From positions 1 to 41,790 of the IMG/VR virus record IMGVR_UViG_3300042445_001054: a stretch of DNA of 41,790 nucleotides. One strand, given 5' to 3'. Shown piece by piece: positions 18,411-39,563 of the stretch. The stretch is from a virus. The notes under the pieces were generated by a model that made no database searches, was not told the DNA's origin, and saw nothing but the letters and a program-made list of their open reading frames with translations. The position numbers and the translations under genes were made by a program. Numbering within the stretch: position 1 is the first letter of the stretch; every line of letters starts with the position of its first letter.

Positions 18411-20018
18411 ATGGCAACTCCAGTTTTAAACAATGGTATATTCCTGCGTGATACTGCATACAATGCAAGTTCACACGTAGATTCTTACCACTTAGTAAAC
18501 ATGTTGAAAGATGCTCAACCAATGGATTTAGGTCCGGTTGACTTATGGGCTATGTCCCAAAAAGTTGAAATGCCTTTGTACCAAATGTCTTCTTTCGGTG
18601 GAAAGAATGTAATTATGGTAGACAATGCAAGAGGTGAATATAGATGGCAGACTCCTGTATCTATTGATCTTCCTTACATTATTGAGGACATTGAACCGGA
18701 TAATGAATTCAAAGGAATTGAGGGATCAACATTCAGAATTAAATTAAACAGACGTGAGTTTGGACATGGTGATATGTTCACATATGACAAATACAACGGT
18801 GTTGAACTTTATGTAACAGCTGAAGATATCTTACCTGTAGGTGATGGATTTATCTATACTGTACAGTTAGTAAACAATGATAACTTCAAGTTCTTGGATA
18901 ACAAGTACTTAGCTAACGGAACTAAAGTTTTCCGTAAAGGTTCTGCTCGTGGTGAATATGGTGAGAGATTCTCTGACATCCAAACTAGAGCTGGTTTCCG
19001 TGAATTCTACAATTATGTAGGAGGTGCAGAAGCTCACGTTCATTACTCTATCTCTTCTAGAGCAGATTTAATGATCAAAGGTGGTATGAATGCAGATGGT
19101 ACAGTTCCTGTAACTGAGATCTGGAGAACATTTGATACTAACTTAAATGATCCTTCAATTGCTAACCTAGATGATATGGTTAAGAAATTAGGTAAAGACA
19201 AAGTTAAAAAAGCTTTTGATAATGGTGATTTATCTAGAACTTTCTTAACTACTATGGAAGCTGCTCACTTATCTAAGATTGCTCAAGATATTGAGACTTA
19301 CTTAATGTGGGGACAAGGTGGTAGAATCAAACAAGATGGTCCAGATGATTTAAGATTGTCAGTGGGTCTTTGGAAACAGTTGGATAACTCTTTCAAAAGA
19401 ATCTACAACAAAAACAATTTTACATTGGATTTATTCCGTGGTGAGATCTACAACTTCTTCAACGGTAAAGTTGAATTCCAAGGTCCAGATCCAAAACGCT
19501 CTCTAGTTGTTCAAACTGGTATGGGTGGTATGAGAATGGTAAATGAGGCTATCAAACGTGAGGCAGTATCTTCAGGTTTATTGATCCAAGCTGCTGATAT
19601 CGGTGCTATCACTGGTAAAGGTATGGACTTAAACTTTGGATTTGCATACACTTCATATGTTATCCCATTCTTGGCTAACGTGAAATTTGTATTGAATCCT
19701 GCATTTGACAATGTTCATACAAATGATATTGAGAACCCAATCATTGATGGTTTCCCATTATCTTCTTATTCATTCATTATCTTTGATACAAATGATAACA
19801 TCTACTTATTGAAATTATCTTGGGATAATCAATTGAAATGGTGGTATCAAAATGGTACTATGGACTACATGGGAAGAACTCAAGGGTTCCAATCTTCAGG
19901 TCAGTTCAATGGATACCGTGTAATGATGTCTCAAACAATGCCTGCTATTTGGGTTAAAGATCCAACTAAAGTATTGAAAATTGTTATGAGAAACCCAATC
20001 ACTGGCGGATCATTCTAA
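18411..20018 (+). CDS. Major capsid protein
   Basis: The 535-residue protein follows portal and scaffold candidates and ends at a strong terminator. It is rich in beta strands and aromatics, with mixed alpha/beta character suited to an HK97 fold. Codon use differs from most neighbours: TTC, AAC and CGT are frequent where nearby genes prefer TTT, AAT and AGA, which points to very high expression. No N-terminal pro-region is obvious. The assignment is from order, size and codon bias. Confidence 0.78.
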   Translation: MATPVLNNGIFLRDTAYNASSHVDSYHLVNMLKDAQPMDLGPVDLWAMSQKVEMPLYQMSSFGGKNVIMVDNARGEYRWQTPVSIDLPYIIEDIEPDNEFKGIEGSTFRIKLNRREFGHGDMFTYDKYNGVELYVTAEDILPVGDGFIYTVQLVNNDNFKFLDNKYLANGTKVFRKGSARGEYGERFSDIQTRAGFREFYNYVGGAEAHVHYSISSRADLMIKGGMNADGTVPVTEIWRTFDTNLNDPSIANLDDMVKKLGKDKVKKAFDNGDLSRTFLTTMEAAHLSKIAQDIETYLMWGQGGRIKQDGPDDLRLSVGLWKQLDNSFKRIYNKNNFTLDLFRGEIYNFFNGKVEFQGPDPKRSLVVQTGMGGMRMVNEAIKREAVSSGLLIQAADIGAITGKGMDLNFGFAYTSYVIPFLANVKFVLNPAFDNVHTNDIENPIIDGFPLSSYSFIIFDTNDNIYLLKLSWDNQLKWWYQNGTMDYMGRTQGFQSSGQFNGYRVMMSQTMPAIWVKDPTKVLKIVMRNPITGGSF

Positions 20019-29035: not shown

Positions 29036-29066
29036 TATTTTGTATATTAAACTAAGAAGTAAAGAT

Positions 29067-30953
29067 ATGAAACCAATTAATCTAGACAATAGTCCTTGCA
29101 ACCCAGTATCAAGTAACTGTGTTATTTGGCAAGGCCCAAATATCCCTTGTATAAAACTATGTACAGGTGATACTGTTACAGATGTAGTATATGAATTAGC
29201 AAAACAATTGTGTACAATTCTAGATCAAGTTAATATTTCTACTGTTGACTTATCCTGTTTAAAACTTACAACAGGAAAACCAACTAATATTAAAGCTTTA
29301 CTTCAAATATTAATTGATAAAATTTGTGCATTAAATAATGTACCTGCTGCATCTTCTTTACCTACTCGTGGAGTTAGTGATACTATTGTTCCAGTTGCTG
29401 CTTGTTTACAAACAAACAATCAAACAACAATGAAATTGACTGATTATGTTCAGTTAATTGGTAATAAAATTTGTAGCATTTTAAATGATATAACTAACAT
29501 AAATAGTTCTATTACAAATTTAACAACTAGAGTAATTGCACTAGAGGCTACTCCTGCTACTCCTCCTTATGTACTACCTAGTATTACACCAGATTGTACA
29601 TTAGCTAATGGTACAGTAGAAGCCGGAGTATCATACAAGTTAGATGTCATTCTTACTGCATTAGTAAATGATGATAACTATGGATACTGTGCATTAATTT
29701 CTAATACTGGAGAACCAGAAGCTGTTTATCAAGCATATACTTCACAAACAGTTGATGGCAATGATGGTGCATTATCTAATTGTTATCAAACATTAAATCA
29801 ATTATATGATACTACATGGATCAATACTCCACAGAATTTAAGTGAAAGTTTTATTGATTTATGGTTAGTAGTTAAAGATATCAGAGATGCATATAAAAGA
29901 TATAATGTAGTTTCTGGTAGTTCTAATGTTACTGTTACACCAACAACAACTCCTGGAACATGTGGTCCTGAAGTTTCATATGCAATAAGTGTTGCGGCAA
30001 GTTCAGATCCTGAAATAATTGTAGCAGATACTTCTGCAATTGACATGACTGTTGTTAAGTTAATACCTACTAATCAGTGGCAAATAAAAGCTAGTATTAA
30101 AGATACAGGTTGGCATGATCTTTTAGGTTTTTCTCAATATAGCTCCTCTCCTCAAGTAGCTAGACCTCAAGCAAGAAGAATAGGAAATATGATACATTTC
30201 AGAGGTGTTATTCAAATACCAATGGGTAGTGATGGAGGTGGCGCATCTGGAACAGTTAGAGGAATTAATGAACCTGATGCGTTCGGAGCTGTGGTAGGAT
30301 GTCAAGTTTATGATTCAGCCTTAGTAGCAGACCCAAATGCTTGTGCTATATATGAAAGTAGTGGTGGTAGTGTAACTCAAATACCGGCTGGTGGTTCAAA
30401 AGCTGCTGCAATGCAAATACGTTTTGCAAGAGGTGGGAATGTATTACCTTCAGCAATTTTAAGTGGTGGTGAAACAATTGACAATACTATTGTACAAAGT
30501 AATACTATTATACTATATCGTGGAGTTAAGTTAGCTGGAGGTAGTAGTGGAGTATTTTTATCAGCTGTAGGTGCTTCTTTTGTATCACCTTTAGCTGGTG
30601 GTGGTTGTATAATGGGTTTTAGTCCACTTAGAGGTAGTGAAAATTTTTCAGGTAGTTTTTTAAATTGGTCTTCTAAAGTAAGGATGATAGTTAGTAGAAT
30701 TAAAACTGGTCAGGTTGTTCCGTTGTATGACAGTCAACTTGCAGGTACAACTAATGACGATACATCAAATGCTCCAGCAGGTAATACGGCTTATACTCCA
30801 AATTTAGTCGGTAATGCTTCAAGTATAGTTTGGACATTTGATTGTGATGCAGGAAATGCTTCAGAACTTGGTGGTTTTAGATATAGATTGGATGGTCAGA
30901 TGGCATTTTTAGCACCTTGTAATACAGGTACTTCAACATTAGTTTCTTGTTAA
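29067..30953 (+). CDS. Structural/adhesin protein, docking module plus unique C-terminal domain
   Basis: I start at the ATG at 29067 (628 residues) because the paralogue downstream starts at the same residues (MKPINLDNS) behind the same AAAGAT leader; an in-frame ATG 27 bases earlier lies in the putative promoter. Residues 1-290 match the gene at 30982, including CVIWQGPNIPCIKLCTGDT, VPVAACLQTNNQTTMKLTDY, and DDNYGYCALI. Residues 300-628 are unique and Gly/Ser-rich (GNMIHFRGVIQIPMGSDGGG), probably a beta-structured receptor-binding or decoration domain. N-terminal identity suggests a common virion docking site. Confidence 0.7.
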   Translation: MKPINLDNSPCNPVSSNCVIWQGPNIPCIKLCTGDTVTDVVYELAKQLCTILDQVNISTVDLSCLKLTTGKPTNIKALLQILIDKICALNNVPAASSLPTRGVSDTIVPVAACLQTNNQTTMKLTDYVQLIGNKICSILNDITNINSSITNLTTRVIALEATPATPPYVLPSITPDCTLANGTVEAGVSYKLDVILTALVNDDNYGYCALISNTGEPEAVYQAYTSQTVDGNDGALSNCYQTLNQLYDTTWINTPQNLSESFIDLWLVVKDIRDAYKRYNVVSGSSNVTVTPTTTPGTCGPEVSYAISVAASSDPEIIVADTSAIDMTVVKLIPTNQWQIKASIKDTGWHDLLGFSQYSSSPQVARPQARRIGNMIHFRGVIQIPMGSDGGGASGTVRGINEPDAFGAVVGCQVYDSALVADPNACAIYESSGGSVTQIPAGGSKAAAMQIRFARGGNVLPSAILSGGETIDNTIVQSNTIILYRGVKLAGGSSGVFLSAVGASFVSPLAGGGCIMGFSPLRGSENFSGSFLNWSSKVRMIVSRIKTGQVVPLYDSQLAGTTNDDTSNAPAGNTAYTPNLVGNASSIVWTFDCDAGNASELGGFRYRLDGQMAFLAPCNTGTSTLVSC

Positions 30954-30981: not shown

Positions 30982-32178
30982 ATGAAACCGATTAATTTAG
31001 ATAACAGCTCTTGTAATCCAATTTCAAGTAATTGTGTCATTTGGCAGGGTCCTGATATTCCATGTATTAAATTATGCACAGGAGACAGTGTAACTGATGT
31101 TGTATATGCATTAGCTACAGAATTATGTACAATTGTTGATCAGGTTAATATTTCAACATTGGATTTATCTTGTTTAGATATTATAACAGGTACGCCAACT
31201 AACACTAATCAATTACTTCAAATTTTAATTGATAAGATATGTGAGTTAAATAATGTTAGTACTACACCAACACGTGGAGGAAGTTCATGTCCTACAGATT
31301 GTATAGTTCCAGTTGCTGGTTGTTTGCAAATAGATGGTCAAACAACAATGAAGTTATTAGACTATGTGCAATTGATTGGTAATAAGATTTGTTTACTTTT
31401 AGATAGTATATCAACAATAAATAGTTCACTTACAGATTTAATAAACAGAGTAATAGAATTAGAATCTGTACCACCTACACCTCCTTTTGTACTTCCATCT
31501 GTTGTACCAGATTGTACACTGGCTGATGGTAGTGTTATGGAAGGAGTATCCTACCCATTAAATATCATTCTTACCGCACTTATTAATGATGACAATCATG
31601 GATATTGTGCCTTATTAGGAGCAACAGGTCAACCATCAGAAATTGAAACAGCATATAGCACAGTACCAATAAATGGTTCAGCTATATCTTATACAAATTG
31701 TACTTTAACATTAGAGCAATATTTTGCTTCTTCTTGGTTTGCTTCACCAAATAATTTAAGTCAAAGTTTTACAAACCTTTGGTTGGTTGTACAAGATTTA
31801 AGAGACTCTTATAAAAGATATAATGTAGTTGCAGGTAACTCAAATGTAACTGTAACTACAACTACTACACCTGGTATATGTCCAGATTTAATTACTTATT
31901 CGGTAAAAGCAAAAAGTGCTTCTGTTGTTGCTGGTGCAAATGTTGCTAGTGTTACCTCAGTTGTTACAGGTGATAATACAGAGTATACAATCAATGTGGT
32001 TGATCCTTTACAAGGTAAATCAGGTAGAGGTATTGCTGTGTTTTCAATGGCAACTGAACCGAATCAAGCAAATTTTGATGCTGACTATGCAGGTAAAGAA
32101 GGATTTACTGTTAACTTTATACCTGGAAACAATCAAATATTACCTGGTGATATTTGGATTGAACCATGTACACCATAA
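30982..32178 (+). CDS. Structural/adhesin protein, paralogue with short C-terminal domain
   Basis: Of 398 residues, about 290 align with the preceding gene (for example CVIWQGPDIPCIKLCTGDS and YKRYNVVAGNSNVTV). The C-terminus differs: SGRGIAVFSMATEPNQANFD followed by a GF...PGDIWIEP ending, a module seen in several Bacteroidota phage structural proteins. The two genes are tandem duplicates that have exchanged C-terminal domains. The start is 28 bases after the previous stop, with the same AAAGAT leader. Confidence 0.7.
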   Translation: MKPINLDNSSCNPISSNCVIWQGPDIPCIKLCTGDSVTDVVYALATELCTIVDQVNISTLDLSCLDIITGTPTNTNQLLQILIDKICELNNVSTTPTRGGSSCPTDCIVPVAGCLQIDGQTTMKLLDYVQLIGNKICLLLDSISTINSSLTDLINRVIELESVPPTPPFVLPSVVPDCTLADGSVMEGVSYPLNIILTALINDDNHGYCALLGATGQPSEIETAYSTVPINGSAISYTNCTLTLEQYFASSWFASPNNLSQSFTNLWLVVQDLRDSYKRYNVVAGNSNVTVTTTTTPGICPDLITYSVKAKSASVVAGANVASVTSVVTGDNTEYTINVVDPLQGKSGRGIAVFSMATEPNQANFDADYAGKEGFTVNFIPGNNQILPGDIWIEPCTP

Positions 32179-32190
32179 ATAAAATAAAGA

Positions 32191-33855
32191 ATGGGAACGT
32201 ATAAAGTATTTAATGGTACTGATTGGGTAAACATATGTGATTGTCAAGTTCATATAAGAAATGCAAGTAATAACTGGCAATTACTAGACCCTGCAAATTG
32301 TGTAACAAAATATTGGACAGGTACAGAATGGTGTGAAGTTACATGTGGTCCTTGTGAATGTTTACCCAACTATGTATTAGATCCTGTAACGCAGTTATGT
32401 GAAAGGCAAACATCATTACCAGCAACCCCAAGTGGAGGTGTATTTTATCCAATTATTGAAGGTGACCATTTTGGCTCATATGGAGATCTTGGTGGTTCAT
32501 TATATCCAAATATAACAAATGCAGTATTTCCTCTTAATGGTTTTGGTTTTCCAACTTATGTAGTAAAAGATAATGCTGGTTTAGGTACTACATTTACAAG
32601 AACTGTTTCTAATCCGACTAATCCAGTATTTAATTCACAAGGTATAGCCGGTTTAGGTAGATTAAATGATTCATCAATATGGGGGCAAGGTTATAATACT
32701 AACACATGGTTTACTGTTAGATTTTGTGTTACTATTCCTGAAACTAAAACTTATATTTTTGGATTAGCTGGGGATAATCAAGTAAGGGCAAGTATAACAT
32801 CAACAACATTTCAGGGAGGTGTAACAAGTTTGAATATTGTAAATCTTTGGGGCTCTAATGATCCTTCTGGTTTACCTATTAACAGTAATAACGGTAGAAC
32901 TTTCAATTATTGGCACATGTTCCCAATTGACTTACCAGCAGGTGATCATGTATTTGAGTTAGCAGGTTATAATTTTGATTCTGAACGTAGTTTTGGTGCT
33001 GAAGTTTATGATATATCTGTAGCTGAATTAAGTGCTATGATGGCTCAAGCATCAGGTTCACTACCCCCAATAGGCCCTGGCACTATTTATCCGTATATAG
33101 TAAATAGTACAAAATATCTTATACAAGATCCCCCCTTACTGTTACCTGGTCCAGGACAGACAGGTATAACATATACTTGTCCTGATGGTTATACATTTAC
33201 AGATTGTAATGGTGCTCCTCAATGTGTTGCTGATCCTATAATCTATCCTTGTGGTGGTACACCACCTGCTTGTGAATGTTTAGGTGGTGATATAATTATA
33301 GGAACGCAAACTTGGACTTGTGAAAACTTAGATGTTACAACATATAGAGATAACACACCAATTCCTCAGGTAACTGATCCAACTGCTTGGGCTAATTTAA
33401 CAACAGGAGCTTGGTGTTATTATGTTAATAGTACAGTAAATGGAATTACTTATGGTAAATTATACAACTGGTATGCAGTTAATGATTCACGTGGATTAGC
33501 TCCTGCTGGATATCATATACCTAGTTACAATGAATGGACTACACTATTTGCTTATTTAGGTGGTGGAGGTGTTGCGGGAGGTAAAATGAAACAGGTGGGT
33601 ACAAGTCTTTGGAATGCCCCTAATACTGATGCTACAAATGAATCATGTTTTACGGCATTGCCTGGTGGACTAAGAGCTTCTGATGGAACTTTTGATAATT
33701 ATAAAGCTTACGGTTTTTTCTGGAGTTCTTCAGATAATCCAGGATCTGTAGCACCTACTGCTTATGCTGTGCAATTATCAAATACCAGTGCTGTTTCAAA
33801 TTTAGCTGCTGCTTTTCAAACAAGAGGCTATTCAGTCAGACTTATTAAAGATTAA
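32191..33855 (+). CDS. Multidomain adhesin with PA14-like and FISUMP domains
   Basis: The 554 residues divide into an N-terminal Trp/Cys-rich part (1-70, FNGTDWVNICDC, WTGTEWCEVTCGPCEC) and a beta-sandwich segment at 174-278 (TYIFGLAGDNQVRASI, WHMFPIDLPAGDHVFELAGY) that looks like a PA14-type carbohydrate-binding domain. A Cys-rich linker follows, then a FISUMP domain at 363-554 ending YSVRLIKD. FISUMP hallmarks are GTQTWTCENLDV, TTGAWCYY, YNWYAVNDSRGLAP, and FFWSS. The C-type-lectin-like fold and the PA14-like part suggest glycan recognition on the host surface. Confidence 0.7.
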   Translation: MGTYKVFNGTDWVNICDCQVHIRNASNNWQLLDPANCVTKYWTGTEWCEVTCGPCECLPNYVLDPVTQLCERQTSLPATPSGGVFYPIIEGDHFGSYGDLGGSLYPNITNAVFPLNGFGFPTYVVKDNAGLGTTFTRTVSNPTNPVFNSQGIAGLGRLNDSSIWGQGYNTNTWFTVRFCVTIPETKTYIFGLAGDNQVRASITSTTFQGGVTSLNIVNLWGSNDPSGLPINSNNGRTFNYWHMFPIDLPAGDHVFELAGYNFDSERSFGAEVYDISVAELSAMMAQASGSLPPIGPGTIYPYIVNSTKYLIQDPPLLLPGPGQTGITYTCPDGYTFTDCNGAPQCVADPIIYPCGGTPPACECLGGDIIIGTQTWTCENLDVTTYRDNTPIPQVTDPTAWANLTTGAWCYYVNSTVNGITYGKLYNWYAVNDSRGLAPAGYHIPSYNEWTTLFAYLGGGGVAGGKMKQVGTSLWNAPNTDATNESCFTALPGGLRASDGTFDNYKAYGFFWSSSDNPGSVAPTAYAVQLSNTSAVSNLAAAFQTRGYSVRLIKD

Positions 33856-33887: not shown

Positions 33888-34439
33888 ATGGAAAATAAAT
33901 GTAAAGATTGTGGATGCCAAGATTGCGGATGCAAAGATACTTTCCTACCTGTAGCACCATGCTCAGATCCTGCTATATGCCCAGCACCTCAAAAGTGTGA
34001 GGAAGCATTTAGTACTTCATGTCTTATATATACAGGAGATTCTGTAGGTTGTGATGATAATCCAATTATAAATAATAACACTCCGCTTGATACAGTTCTT
34101 GCAGATATTGTAAGTGCTGTTTGTGATATTAAAGGTCAAGCATCATTTGATGTAACAATTAATGATACACTTACTGGTTTATATGGTGTTGTTTCATCAA
34201 CATATGGTCCTATAACATATAAATGGTCCATAGAACAAGGACCTTTTATTGGTCATACTATAAATGGATCAAGCACACTTCCAAGTATTATACTTGAACC
34301 AATTTTAGAAAATGGTTTAAGAGTAGGAACTTTATCTGGTATTACAGGTATAGTGTATGCAACACATCTTAAATTAGAAGTAACAAATGGAAGTGGGTAC
34401 ACTGTTACTAAATTTTATACATTTGCAAAAACAATATAA
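33888..34439 (+). CDS. Cys-rich docking protein without adhesin domain (183 aa)
   Basis: The N-terminus is a Cys cluster (CKDCGCQDCGCKD), followed by SCLIYTGDSVGCDDN and a helix with VLADIVSAVC, the same scheme as the docking modules at 29067, 30982 and 34450. Residues 95-183 resemble the Ig/SprB-like domain of the next gene (YKWSIEQGPFIGHTINGSS against YNWSIAQAPFAGHSIFGSN). It looks like a short version of the next gene's N-terminal half, so it may occupy the same virion site or act as an adaptor. Confidence 0.65.
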   Translation: MENKCKDCGCQDCGCKDTFLPVAPCSDPAICPAPQKCEEAFSTSCLIYTGDSVGCDDNPIINNNTPLDTVLADIVSAVCDIKGQASFDVTINDTLTGLYGVVSSTYGPITYKWSIEQGPFIGHTINGSSTLPSIILEPILENGLRVGTLSGITGIVYATHLKLEVTNGSGYTVTKFYTFAKTI

Positions 34440-34449
34440 TAATAAAACT

Positions 34450-36264
34450 ATGAGTAAGTGTTCAACTTGTAAGCCAATAGTAAGCAAAACAATTGTTTGT
34501 TCGGAGTCTGTACCTTGTGCAAATCCAACACCTTGTTCTGAAATATTAGATGCATCATGTTTTCAATATGAGGGTTTAGGTATTGCATTATGTAATACAG
34601 ATATACAAATTGTTGAAACATCTGATTCATTAGAATTAGCATTAAAAAAAATTGTTGAAGAACTTTGTGCAAGTACCGCATGTAATATAAATATTGATAT
34701 TGTTCTTGAACAAAATTTATCACTGACTGCAGTTGTTACAGGTGGTACTGCTCCGTATACTTATAATTGGTCAATTGCACAGGCACCATTTGCAGGTCAT
34801 AGTATATTTGGATCTAATACAAATCAAACAGTAATACTAAACTGTATTCCTGAAAATGGTATTGAATCCGAAGGACTGGATGCATATATGAAAATAACAA
34901 ATGTGTATCTTAATGTAACAGATGCAACAGGTTGTGTAAATAATATATATTACTATTTTACTTCAGATTGTTATCCAACAATTCTTGCACCACCAATTCC
35001 AGTATTACCTGTAATTGAAAGTAAGTTATCTACATACACTGAGACAGCTGACACACCTCTTACAATGGGTGTTATGGCTTTTATGGATGACGCTGCAAAA
35101 ATACCAACATGTCAAGAATTAAAATATGAAATAGCTTGTGTTGAAGGTTACCCTAATCATGGAGATGCTTCTACTGTTTTTAGAGCACAAAGAGATTGTA
35201 CTTTAAAAGCTATGAATGAGAATGCACTAGCTGAAAATGCTGGTAATCCGTATCATGAAATAATAAATTATAGCAATTGGCTACCTGGAGAATTAAATGA
35301 TAAAATTGTTTATGTAAAAGGAGGTTTATTAAATTATTCATGGATTGCTGGATGCCCTGAATGTACATATGCCGTATGGCATGAATTTTATTTTGATAGT
35401 CTTAATCAGGTTATTGATATAGAGATTGTTGAAACTGGATCAAATATTGTAAATGGTGTTTATGAAAATGTTGAATTTACTTTAATAACTCAAAGTTACA
35501 ATCCTCCTTTATATTTTACAGCTAATATAACTGTTGAAGGAAATATTGTTACTGATATTGAAATTGTTAAAAAAGGATCTGGTTATAAGGTAGATGACAT
35601 TCTAATACCTAAAGTTGGACAATTACCAGAAGCAAGTTGTTTACCAGATTTATTAGAATGCTCTAGTGTTAGAATAGGTTTACAAAACTGGGCATCATGT
35701 AATTTAAATGTTAGCACTTATGCTAACGGAGATGTTATACCATATGTTGATGATCCTACAGAATGGTCAAATTTAACTACCGGAGCTTGGTGTTATTATA
35801 ATAACGATCCAGCTAATGAGGCGGTTTATGGCAAACTCTACAATTGGTATGCTATCAATGACCCAAGAGGACTAGCTCCAGCTGGATGGAAAATACCAAC
35901 AGATGATGACTGGACAATTTTAACTGATTATTTAGGTGGTGAAAACGTGGCTGGAGGTAAACTAAAAGAAGCAGGAACAACTCATTGGTTAGCTCCTAAT
36001 ACAGATGCTATTAATAACTATGATTTCACAGCACTTCCAGGCGGTTACCGCGGCAACACTGGAGATTACTACAACATTGGCACCAACGGTTACTGGTGGA
36101 GTTCTACAGAGAACGATACCTACGATGCTTGGTACCGCTACCTGAACTTTGACACTGGCAATGCTTACAGAGAGATCGGCTCTAAGAAAGATGGGGTGTC
36201 TGTTAGACTTATAAAAACAAGTATTCCTTTATTTAAAGTATGTTACCTACAGTTACAGATATAA
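34450..36264 (+). CDS. FISUMP adhesin with candidate DGR variable region
   Basis: I start at 34450 (604 residues), 10 bases after the previous stop; an in-frame ATG at 34387 would overlap the neighbour by 53 bases. Domains are: docking module with Cys (1-75), SprB/Ig-like domain (78-170, VVTGGTAPYTYNWSI), helix RAQRDCTLKAMNE (245-257), a domain with VNGVYENVEF and KKGSGYKVDD (330-390) like that at 24981, and FISUMP (400-589). The FISUMP C-terminal half (530-588) has abnormal base composition. Instead of ending at SVRLIK, the frame runs 15 residues further into the next gene. Confidence 0.75.
   Translation: MSKCSTCKPIVSKTIVCSESVPCANPTPCSEILDASCFQYEGLGIALCNTDIQIVETSDSLELALKKIVEELCASTACNINIDIVLEQNLSLTAVVTGGTAPYTYNWSIAQAPFAGHSIFGSNTNQTVILNCIPENGIESEGLDAYMKITNVYLNVTDATGCVNNIYYYFTSDCYPTILAPPIPVLPVIESKLSTYTETADTPLTMGVMAFMDDAAKIPTCQELKYEIACVEGYPNHGDASTVFRAQRDCTLKAMNENALAENAGNPYHEIINYSNWLPGELNDKIVYVKGGLLNYSWIAGCPECTYAVWHEFYFDSLNQVIDIEIVETGSNIVNGVYENVEFTLITQSYNPPLYFTANITVEGNIVTDIEIVKKGSGYKVDDILIPKVGQLPEASCLPDLLECSSVRIGLQNWASCNLNVSTYANGDVIPYVDDPTEWSNLTTGAWCYYNNDPANEAVYGKLYNWYAINDPRGLAPAGWKIPTDDDWTILTDYLGGENVAGGKLKEAGTTHWLAPNTDAINNYDFTALPGGYRGNTGDYYNIGTNGYWWSSTENDTYDAWYRYLNFDTGNAYREIGSKKDGVSVRLIKTSIPLFKVCYLQLQI
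36037..36213 (+). other. Candidate DGR variable region (VR)
   Basis: This block covers residues 530-588 of the FISUMP adhesin. G+C is about 50% by hand count over 168 bases, against 22-32% in samples from the same gene, with abrupt edges. Nearly all Asn and Tyr codons are AAC and TAC, and many others end in C (GGC, CGC, ACC), unlike the AAT/TAT of this phage. Variable regions written from an AAC-rich template look like this, and C-type-lectin-fold domains are the usual targets. No reverse transcriptase or template copy is in the window. Confidence 0.5.
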
Positions 36265-36569: not shown

Positions 36570-39563
36570 ATGGGATTTATAAGAAATTTTGAAATTTGGA
36601 CTAACCAAAGACCTAGAGTTTGCAACTTTGATATAATGGATTATATTGATACAGGTATTATTGGTAACAGCTGTACAGAAAATACTAGATCCTTAGATAG
36701 TATTGATTGGGCAGATAGTCAAACTACAGCTAATGCAACACATGATGCTTGGTTAAAAGCTGTTAATGAATATTTTTTATCAGTACTAGCTTTTTTTTAT
36801 CAAACTGATTACCAGAATAATCAAGGTCATCCTACTATTCCGGAACAAGATAATTTTAGATGTATAACACCTGAAAATTATAATAAGATAATAGACCTGA
36901 TATATGGTCCTGATGGATTTTGGGAAAAATCTTTTGATTTTGATGTAGCAAGATTACTTTGGTGGAATTGTCTTCTTGATCCAGGAAGTCCTAATAAAAG
37001 AACTGGTACTTATTCAGATACTTTTAGAAGACTCACAGGTATACATACATATATTGATAAACCTTTTACAGTTGATTTCACAAACTATCAAACGCCTTCA
37101 TATGAAAAATATTTAGAGTTTAGATCTAAAATGGATCCTATGTTAGCTAGTTTGAAAATCATCATGCAAACTGCTTTTAAACATCCTCTTACAGATTATG
37201 AAATTGGACCTGAACCATGTCCAGATATAATAATAGGTACACAAATATGGAAGAGATGTAATTTAAGAGTTGATAAATATAGAAACGGTGATCCAATTCC
37301 AGAAGTACAAGATCCTATAGCATGGGCTGCTTTAACAACTGGTGCTTGGTGTTATTACAATAATGATCCTAAAACAGAAAATGTTTATGGAAAAATGTAC
37401 AACTGGTACGCAGTAAATGACCCACGTGGTCTTGCTCCAGTTGGGTATCATATTCCTACTGATGCTGAGTGGGGTTTATTAGTTGATTATGTTGGTGGTT
37501 CTGATCTTGCAGGTGGTAGATTAAAACAAAAAAATAGTGTTAATCCTAATTTTAATCCTCTTAATGATGCAGGATATTATTGTACAAGTTGGGATATGCC
37601 AAGTAGTTCATCTAATGAAAGAGAATTTACTGCTACTGCTGCTGGATACCGTCTTGATAATGGTGATTTTTATAGAGAACATCAAGATGCTTTTTGGTGG
37701 ACACAGACTTTGTATGATATTGATTCTGCTGTTACTTATAATATGAACTATACTCTTCCTCGAGTAGGAAGAGCCCCTGGTAGTTTTGGTACTGGTTTAT
37801 CAGTAAGAGTATTGAAAGGAGAAACTCCAATAGAATGTCCTGATGTTACTATTGGTACTCAGACATGGACAAGATGTAATTTAAATACTGCTTTCTATAG
37901 AAATGGAGACCCAATACCGCAGGTTACTGATCCTACTGAATGGGAAAATCTTACAACTGGTGCTTGGTGCTACTATAATAATGACCCATCAAATGAAGCT
38001 ATTTATGGTAAGTTATATAATTGGTATGCCATTAATGATCCAAGGGGTATAGCTCCTGTAGGATATCATGTTCCAATTATAGAAGAATGCAATACACTGA
38101 TAGATTATTTAGGAGGAAGTTTGGTTGCAGGTGGTAAAATGAAAAGAGCTGGTACATTAGGTGTTGGTAAATGGCAAGTACCAAATACAGATGGTACAAA
38201 TGAATCATTATTTACAGCTTTAGCTGGTGGAGGTCGTAATAATAATGGACTTGTGTTTTTTGGTATTACTGAAGGAGCAGTTTTTTGGACTGCTGATGAA
38301 AAGGATGAACAAAATGGTATGGAATTTAATTTATTTTATGATAATGGTGAAGTACCTATAGGTTTTGATAACAAACATAATGGATATTCTGTAAGATTAG
38401 TAAAAGGTGAAACACCTCCTCTTCCGGTATGTAAAGAAATAACCATTGGTACACAAACTTGGACAGGTTGTAACTTAGATGTGACAACATACAGAAACGG
38501 AGATGTTATTCCGCAAGTACAAGATCCAACTGAATGGGCAAACTTGACAACAGGTGCCTGGTGTTACTATAATAATGCAATAGGTAATAACTATACCTAC
38601 GGTAAGTTATACAACTGGTATGCTGTAAATGACCCTAGAGGGTTAGCACCAGAAGGTTGGCATATACCTTCAGATGAAGAATGGACAACTCTTAAAGACT
38701 ATATAGGTGGAGAATTTGTTGCTGGTGGAAAATTAAAAGAGGCTGGCCTTACTCATTGGAATAGTCCTAATATAGATGCAACAAATGAGTTTTGTTTTAC
38801 AGCTCTTCCTGGTGGAACCCGTTATGACATTGGAAGTTATAGTGACATTGGTGACTATGGTTACTGGTGGAGTTCTACGGAAAGTAGTACAAGTAATGCT
38901 TGGTACAGTATATTAGGTCATGACAGTGGTGAAGCAAACAGAGGGGGTAGTATTAAGAAAGCTGGATTATCTGTTAGACTTGTTAAAGGTGAATTACCAC
39001 CATGTGAAATTATTATTGGAACACAAACATGGCAATGTAAAAACTTAGATGTAGCTACTTATAGAAACGGTGATGTAATCCCTCAAGTTACAGATCCTAA
39101 CGTGTGGGGTACTTTAACTACTGGTGCATGGTGTCATTATAATAATGACCCTGCTAATGATGCAATTTATGGTAAAATGTATAATTGGTATGCTGTTAAT
39201 GATTCCAGAGGTATAGCTCCCACTGGTTATCACGTACCAAGTGATACTGAGTGGACTACACTAACAGATTATCTAGGTGGTTTAAGTGTAGCAGGTGGTA
39301 AAATGAAAGAAGCAGGTTTAGATCACTGGCTTTCTCCTAATTCAGGTGCTACAAATAGTTCAGGGTTTACCGGTCTTCCAGGTGGTCACCGTTTCCAGAC
39401 TGTAGGTTACAGTGATATTGGTGTTAACGGTGAATGGTGGAGTTCTACTCAGTTTTTTACAGATAATGCTTGGTTTCGCGGACTAAACTTTGGTAGTGTT
39501 GCTGCCTTTAGAAGTGCCGGTAGTAAGGGTACTGGATTCTCTGTTAGACTTATGAAAGATTAA
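36570..39563 (+). CDS. Giant adhesin with four tandem FISUMP domains
   Basis: The protein has 997 residues. Residues 1-215 are a non-repeated, aromatic-rich N-terminal domain containing ATHDAWLKAVNE (the helix shared with the two preceding genes). Four FISUMP domains follow at about 217-416, 423-612, 621-806 and 812-997. Each opens IGTQ-W, then YRNGD, TTGAWC-YNN, YGK-YNWYA-ND-RG-AP, and closes GxSVRLxK; linkers are short (GETP, GELPP). The last domain ends exactly at the stop, as DGR target proteins do. A multivalent C-type-lectin-like host-recognition fibre is inferred. A terminator follows. Confidence 0.75.
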   Translation: MGFIRNFEIWTNQRPRVCNFDIMDYIDTGIIGNSCTENTRSLDSIDWADSQTTANATHDAWLKAVNEYFLSVLAFFYQTDYQNNQGHPTIPEQDNFRCITPENYNKIIDLIYGPDGFWEKSFDFDVARLLWWNCLLDPGSPNKRTGTYSDTFRRLTGIHTYIDKPFTVDFTNYQTPSYEKYLEFRSKMDPMLASLKIIMQTAFKHPLTDYEIGPEPCPDIIIGTQIWKRCNLRVDKYRNGDPIPEVQDPIAWAALTTGAWCYYNNDPKTENVYGKMYNWYAVNDPRGLAPVGYHIPTDAEWGLLVDYVGGSDLAGGRLKQKNSVNPNFNPLNDAGYYCTSWDMPSSSSNEREFTATAAGYRLDNGDFYREHQDAFWWTQTLYDIDSAVTYNMNYTLPRVGRAPGSFGTGLSVRVLKGETPIECPDVTIGTQTWTRCNLNTAFYRNGDPIPQVTDPTEWENLTTGAWCYYNNDPSNEAIYGKLYNWYAINDPRGIAPVGYHVPIIEECNTLIDYLGGSLVAGGKMKRAGTLGVGKWQVPNTDGTNESLFTALAGGGRNNNGLVFFGITEGAVFWTADEKDEQNGMEFNLFYDNGEVPIGFDNKHNGYSVRLVKGETPPLPVCKEITIGTQTWTGCNLDVTTYRNGDVIPQVQDPTEWANLTTGAWCYYNNAIGNNYTYGKLYNWYAVNDPRGLAPEGWHIPSDEEWTTLKDYIGGEFVAGGKLKEAGLTHWNSPNIDATNEFCFTALPGGTRYDIGSYSDIGDYGYWWSSTESSTSNAWYSILGHDSGEANRGGSIKKAGLSVRLVKGELPPCEIIIGTQTWQCKNLDVATYRNGDVIPQVTDPNVWGTLTTGAWCHYNNDPANDAIYGKMYNWYAVNDSRGIAPTGYHVPSDTEWTTLTDYLGGLSVAGGKMKEAGLDHWLSPNSGATNSSGFTGLPGGHRFQTVGYSDIGVNGEWWSSTQFFTDNAWFRGLNFGSVAAFRSAGSKGTGFSVRLMKD
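37218..39560 (+). repeat. Four tandem FISUMP-domain repeats (570-600 bp period)
   Basis: Each unit encodes about 190-200 residues with the same motif order. The first halves are strongly conserved, and the second halves, corresponding to lectin-type variable loops, diverge. Units 3 and 4, and the single copy in the gene at 34450, share the identical 14-base string TGGTGGAGTTCTAC; units 1 and 2 have diverged there (WWTQT, FWTAD). Divergence between units at base level argues for old duplications rather than recent ones. Confidence 0.75.

Follow-up and report, generated by a model that had tools for sequence, protein, structure and literature searches.

In a crAss-like phage adhesin, a C3-rich block encodes the C-terminal half of a FISUMP domain. 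This block is very probably the variable region of a diversity-generating retroelement (DGR), acquired in trans by a phage group that appears to have neither a reverse transcriptase (RT) nor a template of its own. The window, by which we mean the whole stretch of DNA that was analysed, comprises the complete virus record of 41,790 bases.

The phage and its adhesin array

The window is one fragment of a crAss-like phage, and its capsid protein, terminase and portal place the source in the Crassvirales; terminase, portal and major head protein all have PHROG matches. Genomes of this phage group measure about 120 kb, of which the window represents about one third. No DNA similarity to the window was found among the INPHARED phages. 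Pfam detects six FISUMP domains in the window, spread over three genes, and the block forms the C-terminal half of the domain in the second of these, so that its predicted location within a FISUMP adhesin is confirmed. The features to which we refer are the following:

18411..20018, + strand: crassvirus major capsid protein (PF23898, 89.3 bits, cut-off 27)
32191..33855, + strand: adhesin gene with one FISUMP domain, without variable-region signature (Pfam)
34453..36264, + strand: adhesin gene carrying the fresh block (open reading frame list and Pfam; mechanical reading-frame start at 34387)
35668..36216, + strand: FISUMP (PF09603) domain enclosing the block (Pfam E-value 4e-42, 145 bits, curated cut-off 33.9)
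36040..36198, + strand: DGR-type variable region, fresh copy with C3-rich NNC codons (maximal GC3 segment, template comparison, codon-by-codon alignment)
36570..39563, + strand: adhesin gene with four FISUMP domains (Pfam, four stretches)
38805..38972, + strand: older, decayed variable-region-like copy in FISUMP domain 3 of the preceding gene (comparison with template L224)
39375..39545, + strand: older, decayed variable-region-like copy in FISUMP domain 4 of the same gene (comparison with template L224)

Elsewhere in the structural region, the neighbouring genes 29040-30953 and 30982-32178 have alike N-terminal parts, a recent-looking tandem duplication, and in related phages one and the same set of stretches matches both genes, at 71-76% identity.

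The lectin fold ascribed to the FISUMP domain comes from prior literature. The AlphaFold2 model of the domain is confident (pLDDT 96.4); in Foldseek searches against solved structures its matches were weak (best E = 0.13), with several C-type lectins at E-values of 0.5-9 and TM-scores below 0.4.

Composition and edges of the block

Across the whole window, GC3 reaches its maximal segment score at 36040-36198, with 23.2 compared to a highest score of 11.1 in 1,000 shuffles. GC3 in the block is about 0.6, whereas the 11,085 codons in the genes of the window average 0.144, and in segments of 90-100 bases the G+C content is 0.46-0.50 across the block and roughly 0.25-0.43 in the flanks. Both edges are sharp, falling between CTT CCA and GGC on the 5' side and between GGG GTG and TCT on the 3' side. 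Asparagine is encoded by five AAC codons and one AAT (241 and 607 in the genes of the window), tyrosine by eight TAC codons and no TAT (133 and 393), which means that 13 of 14 asparagine and tyrosine codons end in C. The original prediction of a G+C-rich block with sharp edges and a preference for AAC and TAC thus holds at essentially the coordinates proposed.

Such a composition might come from a GC-rich donor, but we rejected this source, since three neighbouring genes of the bacterium with the best-matching template have a GC3 of only 0.22-0.32. The high GC3 of the block is instead inherent in the DGR template itself, which has 19 AAC codons.

Codon pattern in related phages

A domain search of viral contigs yielded 79 loci. 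The corresponding portion of the domain has a C3-rich block in L005, L006 and L009 (in two domains of the latter), and also in L007, L010 and L011, which have a second codon framework. In the related blocks, the third base of the NNC codons is constant while the first and second bases shift. In pairwise comparisons, the differences between blocks fall on codon positions 1 and 2, whereas the N-terminal halves of the same domains differ mainly at position 3. Between the window and L005, the differences at positions 1, 2 and 3 number 19, 17 and 9 in the block and 26, 21 and 55 in the N-terminal half (p = 9e-5), and the corresponding contrast between L005 and L006 has p = 3e-8, where these p-values, like the one given below, assume independent sites, which the sites are not. 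Ordinary protein evolution produces the pattern opposite to that of the blocks.

Bacterial templates

We scanned bacterial and archaeal genomes with a pattern of invariant framework bases, which imposed C or T as the third base at a few codons within 30 bases. Among the matches listed were five poly-AAC templates (L224, L197, L132, L204, L156), and four of the five assemblies that bear them also contain RTs, the exception being that of L197. FISUMP genes with an NNC framework were common in Bacteroidota and Fibrobacterota among the matches listed. In four bacterial systems, the template and the neighbouring variable region differ almost solely at template adenines.

The best template, L224, belongs to a full DGR (L238, 14846-18754) on contig CAMAXI010000024.1 of a MAG labelled Chryseobacterium gleum, which comprises a collagen/FISUMP target, bAvd, template and RT. 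Its bAvd matches PF22296 above the cut-off; Avd-type accessory genes are present in many DGRs, though not in all. Judging from their translations, we read the other genes on this contig as being of ordinary chromosomal type. As far as the sequences tell, this DGR is a relative of the likely donor and not the exact donor. No second template of the L224 type was found in 240 genomes of the MAG's family and 399 of its order.

In the core of the window's block, 27 of 70 template adenines differ from L224, compared to 6 of 92 other bases (p = 5e-7), and all six non-adenine differences fall on third codon positions; at a few codons the scan pattern itself had limited the third base to C or T. The blocks of related phages gave similar values (L005: 29 of 70 adenines and 4 of 92 others; L006: 34 and 7; L009a: 35 and 7; L009b: 20 and 6), with the non-adenine differences of the five phage blocks lying nearly all on third positions. 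The bacterium's own variable region differs from its template at 30 of 70 adenines and 1 of 92 other bases. The prediction that the block is a variable region of DGR type within a FISUMP domain is therefore supported by the predominance of template-adenine differences and by the like behaviour of the bacterial template and variable-region pairs.

Template homology of the block extends over about 36034-36210. Its 5' edge coincides with the template edge in seven phage domains, and the edges generally lie at or near template edges. The match to known templates ends near TCTGTTAG; the 3' end of the templates, where the IMH site is expected, is not conserved in the phages, although the true donor template may differ from those known. 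The edge stretches CTTCC(G)GGCGG and TCTGTTAG are common to phage and bacterium.

Further observations concern the bacterial matches. The genes next to the L204 template have a phage-like appearance when inspected by eye, which means that prophages may be among the donors. A FISUMP DGR in a Bacteroidales MAG (L241, 4741-10607, CAIUTB010000007.1) lies by head- and terminase-like phage genes. The Candidatus Fibrimonas termitidis GUT221 MAG has FISUMP stretches with an NNC framework on eight contigs (L123, L126, L146, L153, L157, L166, L184, L189), a distribution suggestive of a single DGR that serves many remote targets. Four matches (L111, L177, L208, L222) come from MAGs labelled Planktophila, Nitrotoga and Dehalococcoidales and are probably mis-binned Bacteroidota contigs.

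Variable regions of different age

We assigned age classes by comparing each FISUMP domain to its best template. Fresh variable regions, with 0-3 of 50 non-adenine bases changed at positions 1 and 2 and 5-9 of 53 at third positions, occur in the window's second adhesin gene, in G001, in the last domain of G002 and in two domains of G005; in these sister phages the fresh copies occupy different domains. The third adhesin gene of the window has intermediate copies in its domains 3 and 4 (2-3 of 50 and 24-25 of 53). Compared to L224, domain 3 has 2 of 50 changes at positions 1 and 2, 25 of 53 at third positions and 29 of 71 at adenines; the values for domain 4 are 3, 24 and 41. All remaining domains, including every one of G020, are unrelated or very old (10-22 and 26-39 changes), and the domain of the first adhesin gene differs from its best template at 13 of 52 and 38 of 52 non-adenine sites. 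This gradation gives the impression that copies arrived repeatedly and then decayed at synonymous sites, although positions 1 and 2 are also conserved by selection on the protein.

Among near-identical phages, the variable region is identical in four contigs (L100, L101, L102, L104) and in the pair L095 and L103. L091 and L092 are identical to L094 over about 4 kb around the variable region except for three substitutions, which fall in two adjacent NNC codons (AGC GTC against AAC TAC). The latter case speaks for some activity of the variable region, with another clustered mutation as a possible alternative. Since the variable region is invariant in two of the three near-identical sets, nothing points to a phage DGR that is autonomous and always active.

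Search for a reverse transcriptase and a template in phages

HMM searches for RVT_1 were negative for both the window and 50 related virus records; as positive controls, the same search recovered RTs from control genomes, from a prophage record and from the MAGs that bear the templates. The window also holds no second template-like near-copy, in agreement with the original prediction that both components are absent from it. Two relatives appear to be complete: G005, with 121,494 bases, an exact 127-base terminal repeat and two fresh variable regions, and G020, with 121,672 bases, a 297-base terminal repeat at 99.3% and collinearity with the window. Neither contained an RT or a template in HMM searches, tblastn with DGR RTs, template DNA searches and a scan for AAC density. 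G001, an 84-kb relative that reaches about 64 kb past the window's end, had no RT, and only its variable region matched the template. In the relatives, template matches were confined to FISUMP domains. The expectation that RT and template lie elsewhere in the phage's genome was thus not borne out, as judged, the window being a fragment, from these apparently complete relatives.

We extended the template search to 2.9 million IMG/VR viral contigs, from which records very near the window were possibly excluded, and obtained no matching template. Of the patterns used, a first, stricter one had no match; three further ones, each fitting three or four of the five templates, matched a FISUMP variable region (L084), a site that proved spurious and was discarded as a template (L085), and a prophage DGR with another framework (L086/L242). 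A protein search of the phage records with the bacterial RT gave no match, yet it also missed the RVT_1 gene of the viral contig G051 (L084/L088), whose RT is not similar to that of the L238 DGR; this protein search is thus uninformative, and the negative result rests on the HMM search and on tblastn run with positive controls.

Several other candidates were rejected. Reading frames of L232 and L087 had tblastn matches to phage FISUMP domains, which are due to translated template and not to an RT, and AAC-dense stretches in G020 and G005 are glutamine-rich or threonine-rich coding sequence read in another frame. Taken together, the absence of an RT and a template of its own from this phage group is strongly indicated.

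Origin of the block

The explanation that we regard as very probable is acquisition in trans. A Bacteroidota-type DGR template would have been copied with its adenines, chiefly those of AAC and AAT codons, randomised, and the copy would have ended up in the C-terminal half of a single FISUMP domain in the adhesin array, the presumed source being a DGR carried by the host or by a co-resident prophage. Two routes are conceivable: template cDNA may have entered the replicating phage through stray mutagenic retrohoming, or the phage may have recombined with a target gene that was diversified beforehand. Acquisition would have happened repeatedly, with old copies decaying at synonymous sites. The edges of the block fail to separate homing from recombination, because phage and bacterium have the edge stretches in common. 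Two observations speak against efficient homing: the phages do not retain the 3' end of the bacterial templates, and variable regions are identical within two of the near-identical sets. Replicating BPP-1 phage is rewritten when avd, TR and RT are supplied in trans (PMC3240598), and a reconstituted DGR acts on other replicons, favouring adenines in AAC (PMC12875486). That these phages exploit the DGRs of their hosts, with bacterial RT and template writing mutagenised cDNA into the FISUMP array during infection, is a tentative proposal that we consider rather doubtful; if true, the phage would gain targeted receptor-binding diversity without encoding the machinery. The likely function of the acquired copies is to supply ready-made receptor-binding variants.

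Two alternatives that invoke a DGR of the phage itself appear improbable to us, and equally so. A complete DGR could lie outside the contig, as it does in some gut crAss-like phages (PMC7290462, PMC11054128, PMC12386605), and a window covering only about a third of the group's genome leaves room for an RT; however, the collinear relatives G020 and G005, apparently complete, and also G001 yielded neither an RT, by HMM or tblastn, nor a template, and no such template was found among the viral contigs searched. The variable regions might otherwise be leftovers of an ancestral FISUMP DGR whose RT and template were lost, a course with a parallel in Epsilonunovirus crAss-like phages, many of which have a fragmented or absent RT while the targets persist (PMC11054128). 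Such a loss does not readily account for clearly different ages of variable regions in one genome, for fresh copies that sit in different domains of sister phages and are missing from G020, or for the nearest templates, among the matches listed, being bacterial, with none found in related phages.

Ordinary domain shuffling from a GC-rich or differently biased genome, without any DGR, is the least credible origin. Phage adhesins are often mosaic, and the frequency of NNC-framework FISUMP genes in Bacteroidota and Fibrobacterota, among the matches listed, would provide a source. Yet the changes are confined to template adenines and synonymous positions are kept, which is the opposite of the behaviour of the domain's own N-terminal half, and GC3 is not high in the bacterium that carries the best template. 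The adenine pattern refutes simple shuffling; recombinational capture of a variable region made by a DGR remains part of acquisition in trans.

Comparison with known systems

In the open-access literature we found no description of variable regions that match bacterial templates and occur in several ages per array in phages without an RT, which does not in itself prove novelty; RT-less relatives of DGR-bearing gut crAss-like phages are already known (PMC11054128). DGR surveys begin at the RT and therefore miss variable regions whose RT is distant, and remote targets were not detectable in the survey of Roux et al. 2021 (PMC8144416). If confirmed, our finding would link the diversification of bacteria and phages, make the rewriting of phages by host DGRs testable and offer a simple search key, namely blocks of C3-rich NNC codons within adhesin genes that are otherwise AT-rich.

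Among gut crAss-like phages, DGRs have been described in crAssphage LMMB, crAssE-Sib and the Zeta group (PMC7290462, PMC11054128, PMC12386605). They resemble the present case in that a Crassvirales adhesin carries a DGR variable region and that RT-less relatives exist, but there RT and template are, or formerly were, beside the target, whereas here the templates are found in bacteria. FISUMP (Fib_succ_major) is a known DGR target in human microbiomes (PMC4159848), where the same Pfam domain is targeted, but beside an RT. The prophage IMGVR_UViG_2509601030_000011 (L242, 12138-15410) likewise combines a FISUMP target in its tail region with a bAvd-like gene, a template and an RT, but has another codon framework and is another kind of phage. 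The BPP-1 DGR, which acts on Mtd, shares with our case the adenine mutagenesis of a phage receptor-binding protein and works when a replicating phage receives RT, Avd and TR in trans (PMC3240598); natural BPP-1, however, has a cassette of its own that includes an IMH and a hairpin, neither of which was found here. The bacterial DGR on CAMAXI010000024.1 has the identical codon framework and protein domain, and its template predicts 86 of 92 non-adenine core bases of the block; it differs in being a complete cassette with a collagen-repeat target in cis, whereas the phage carries the variable region only.
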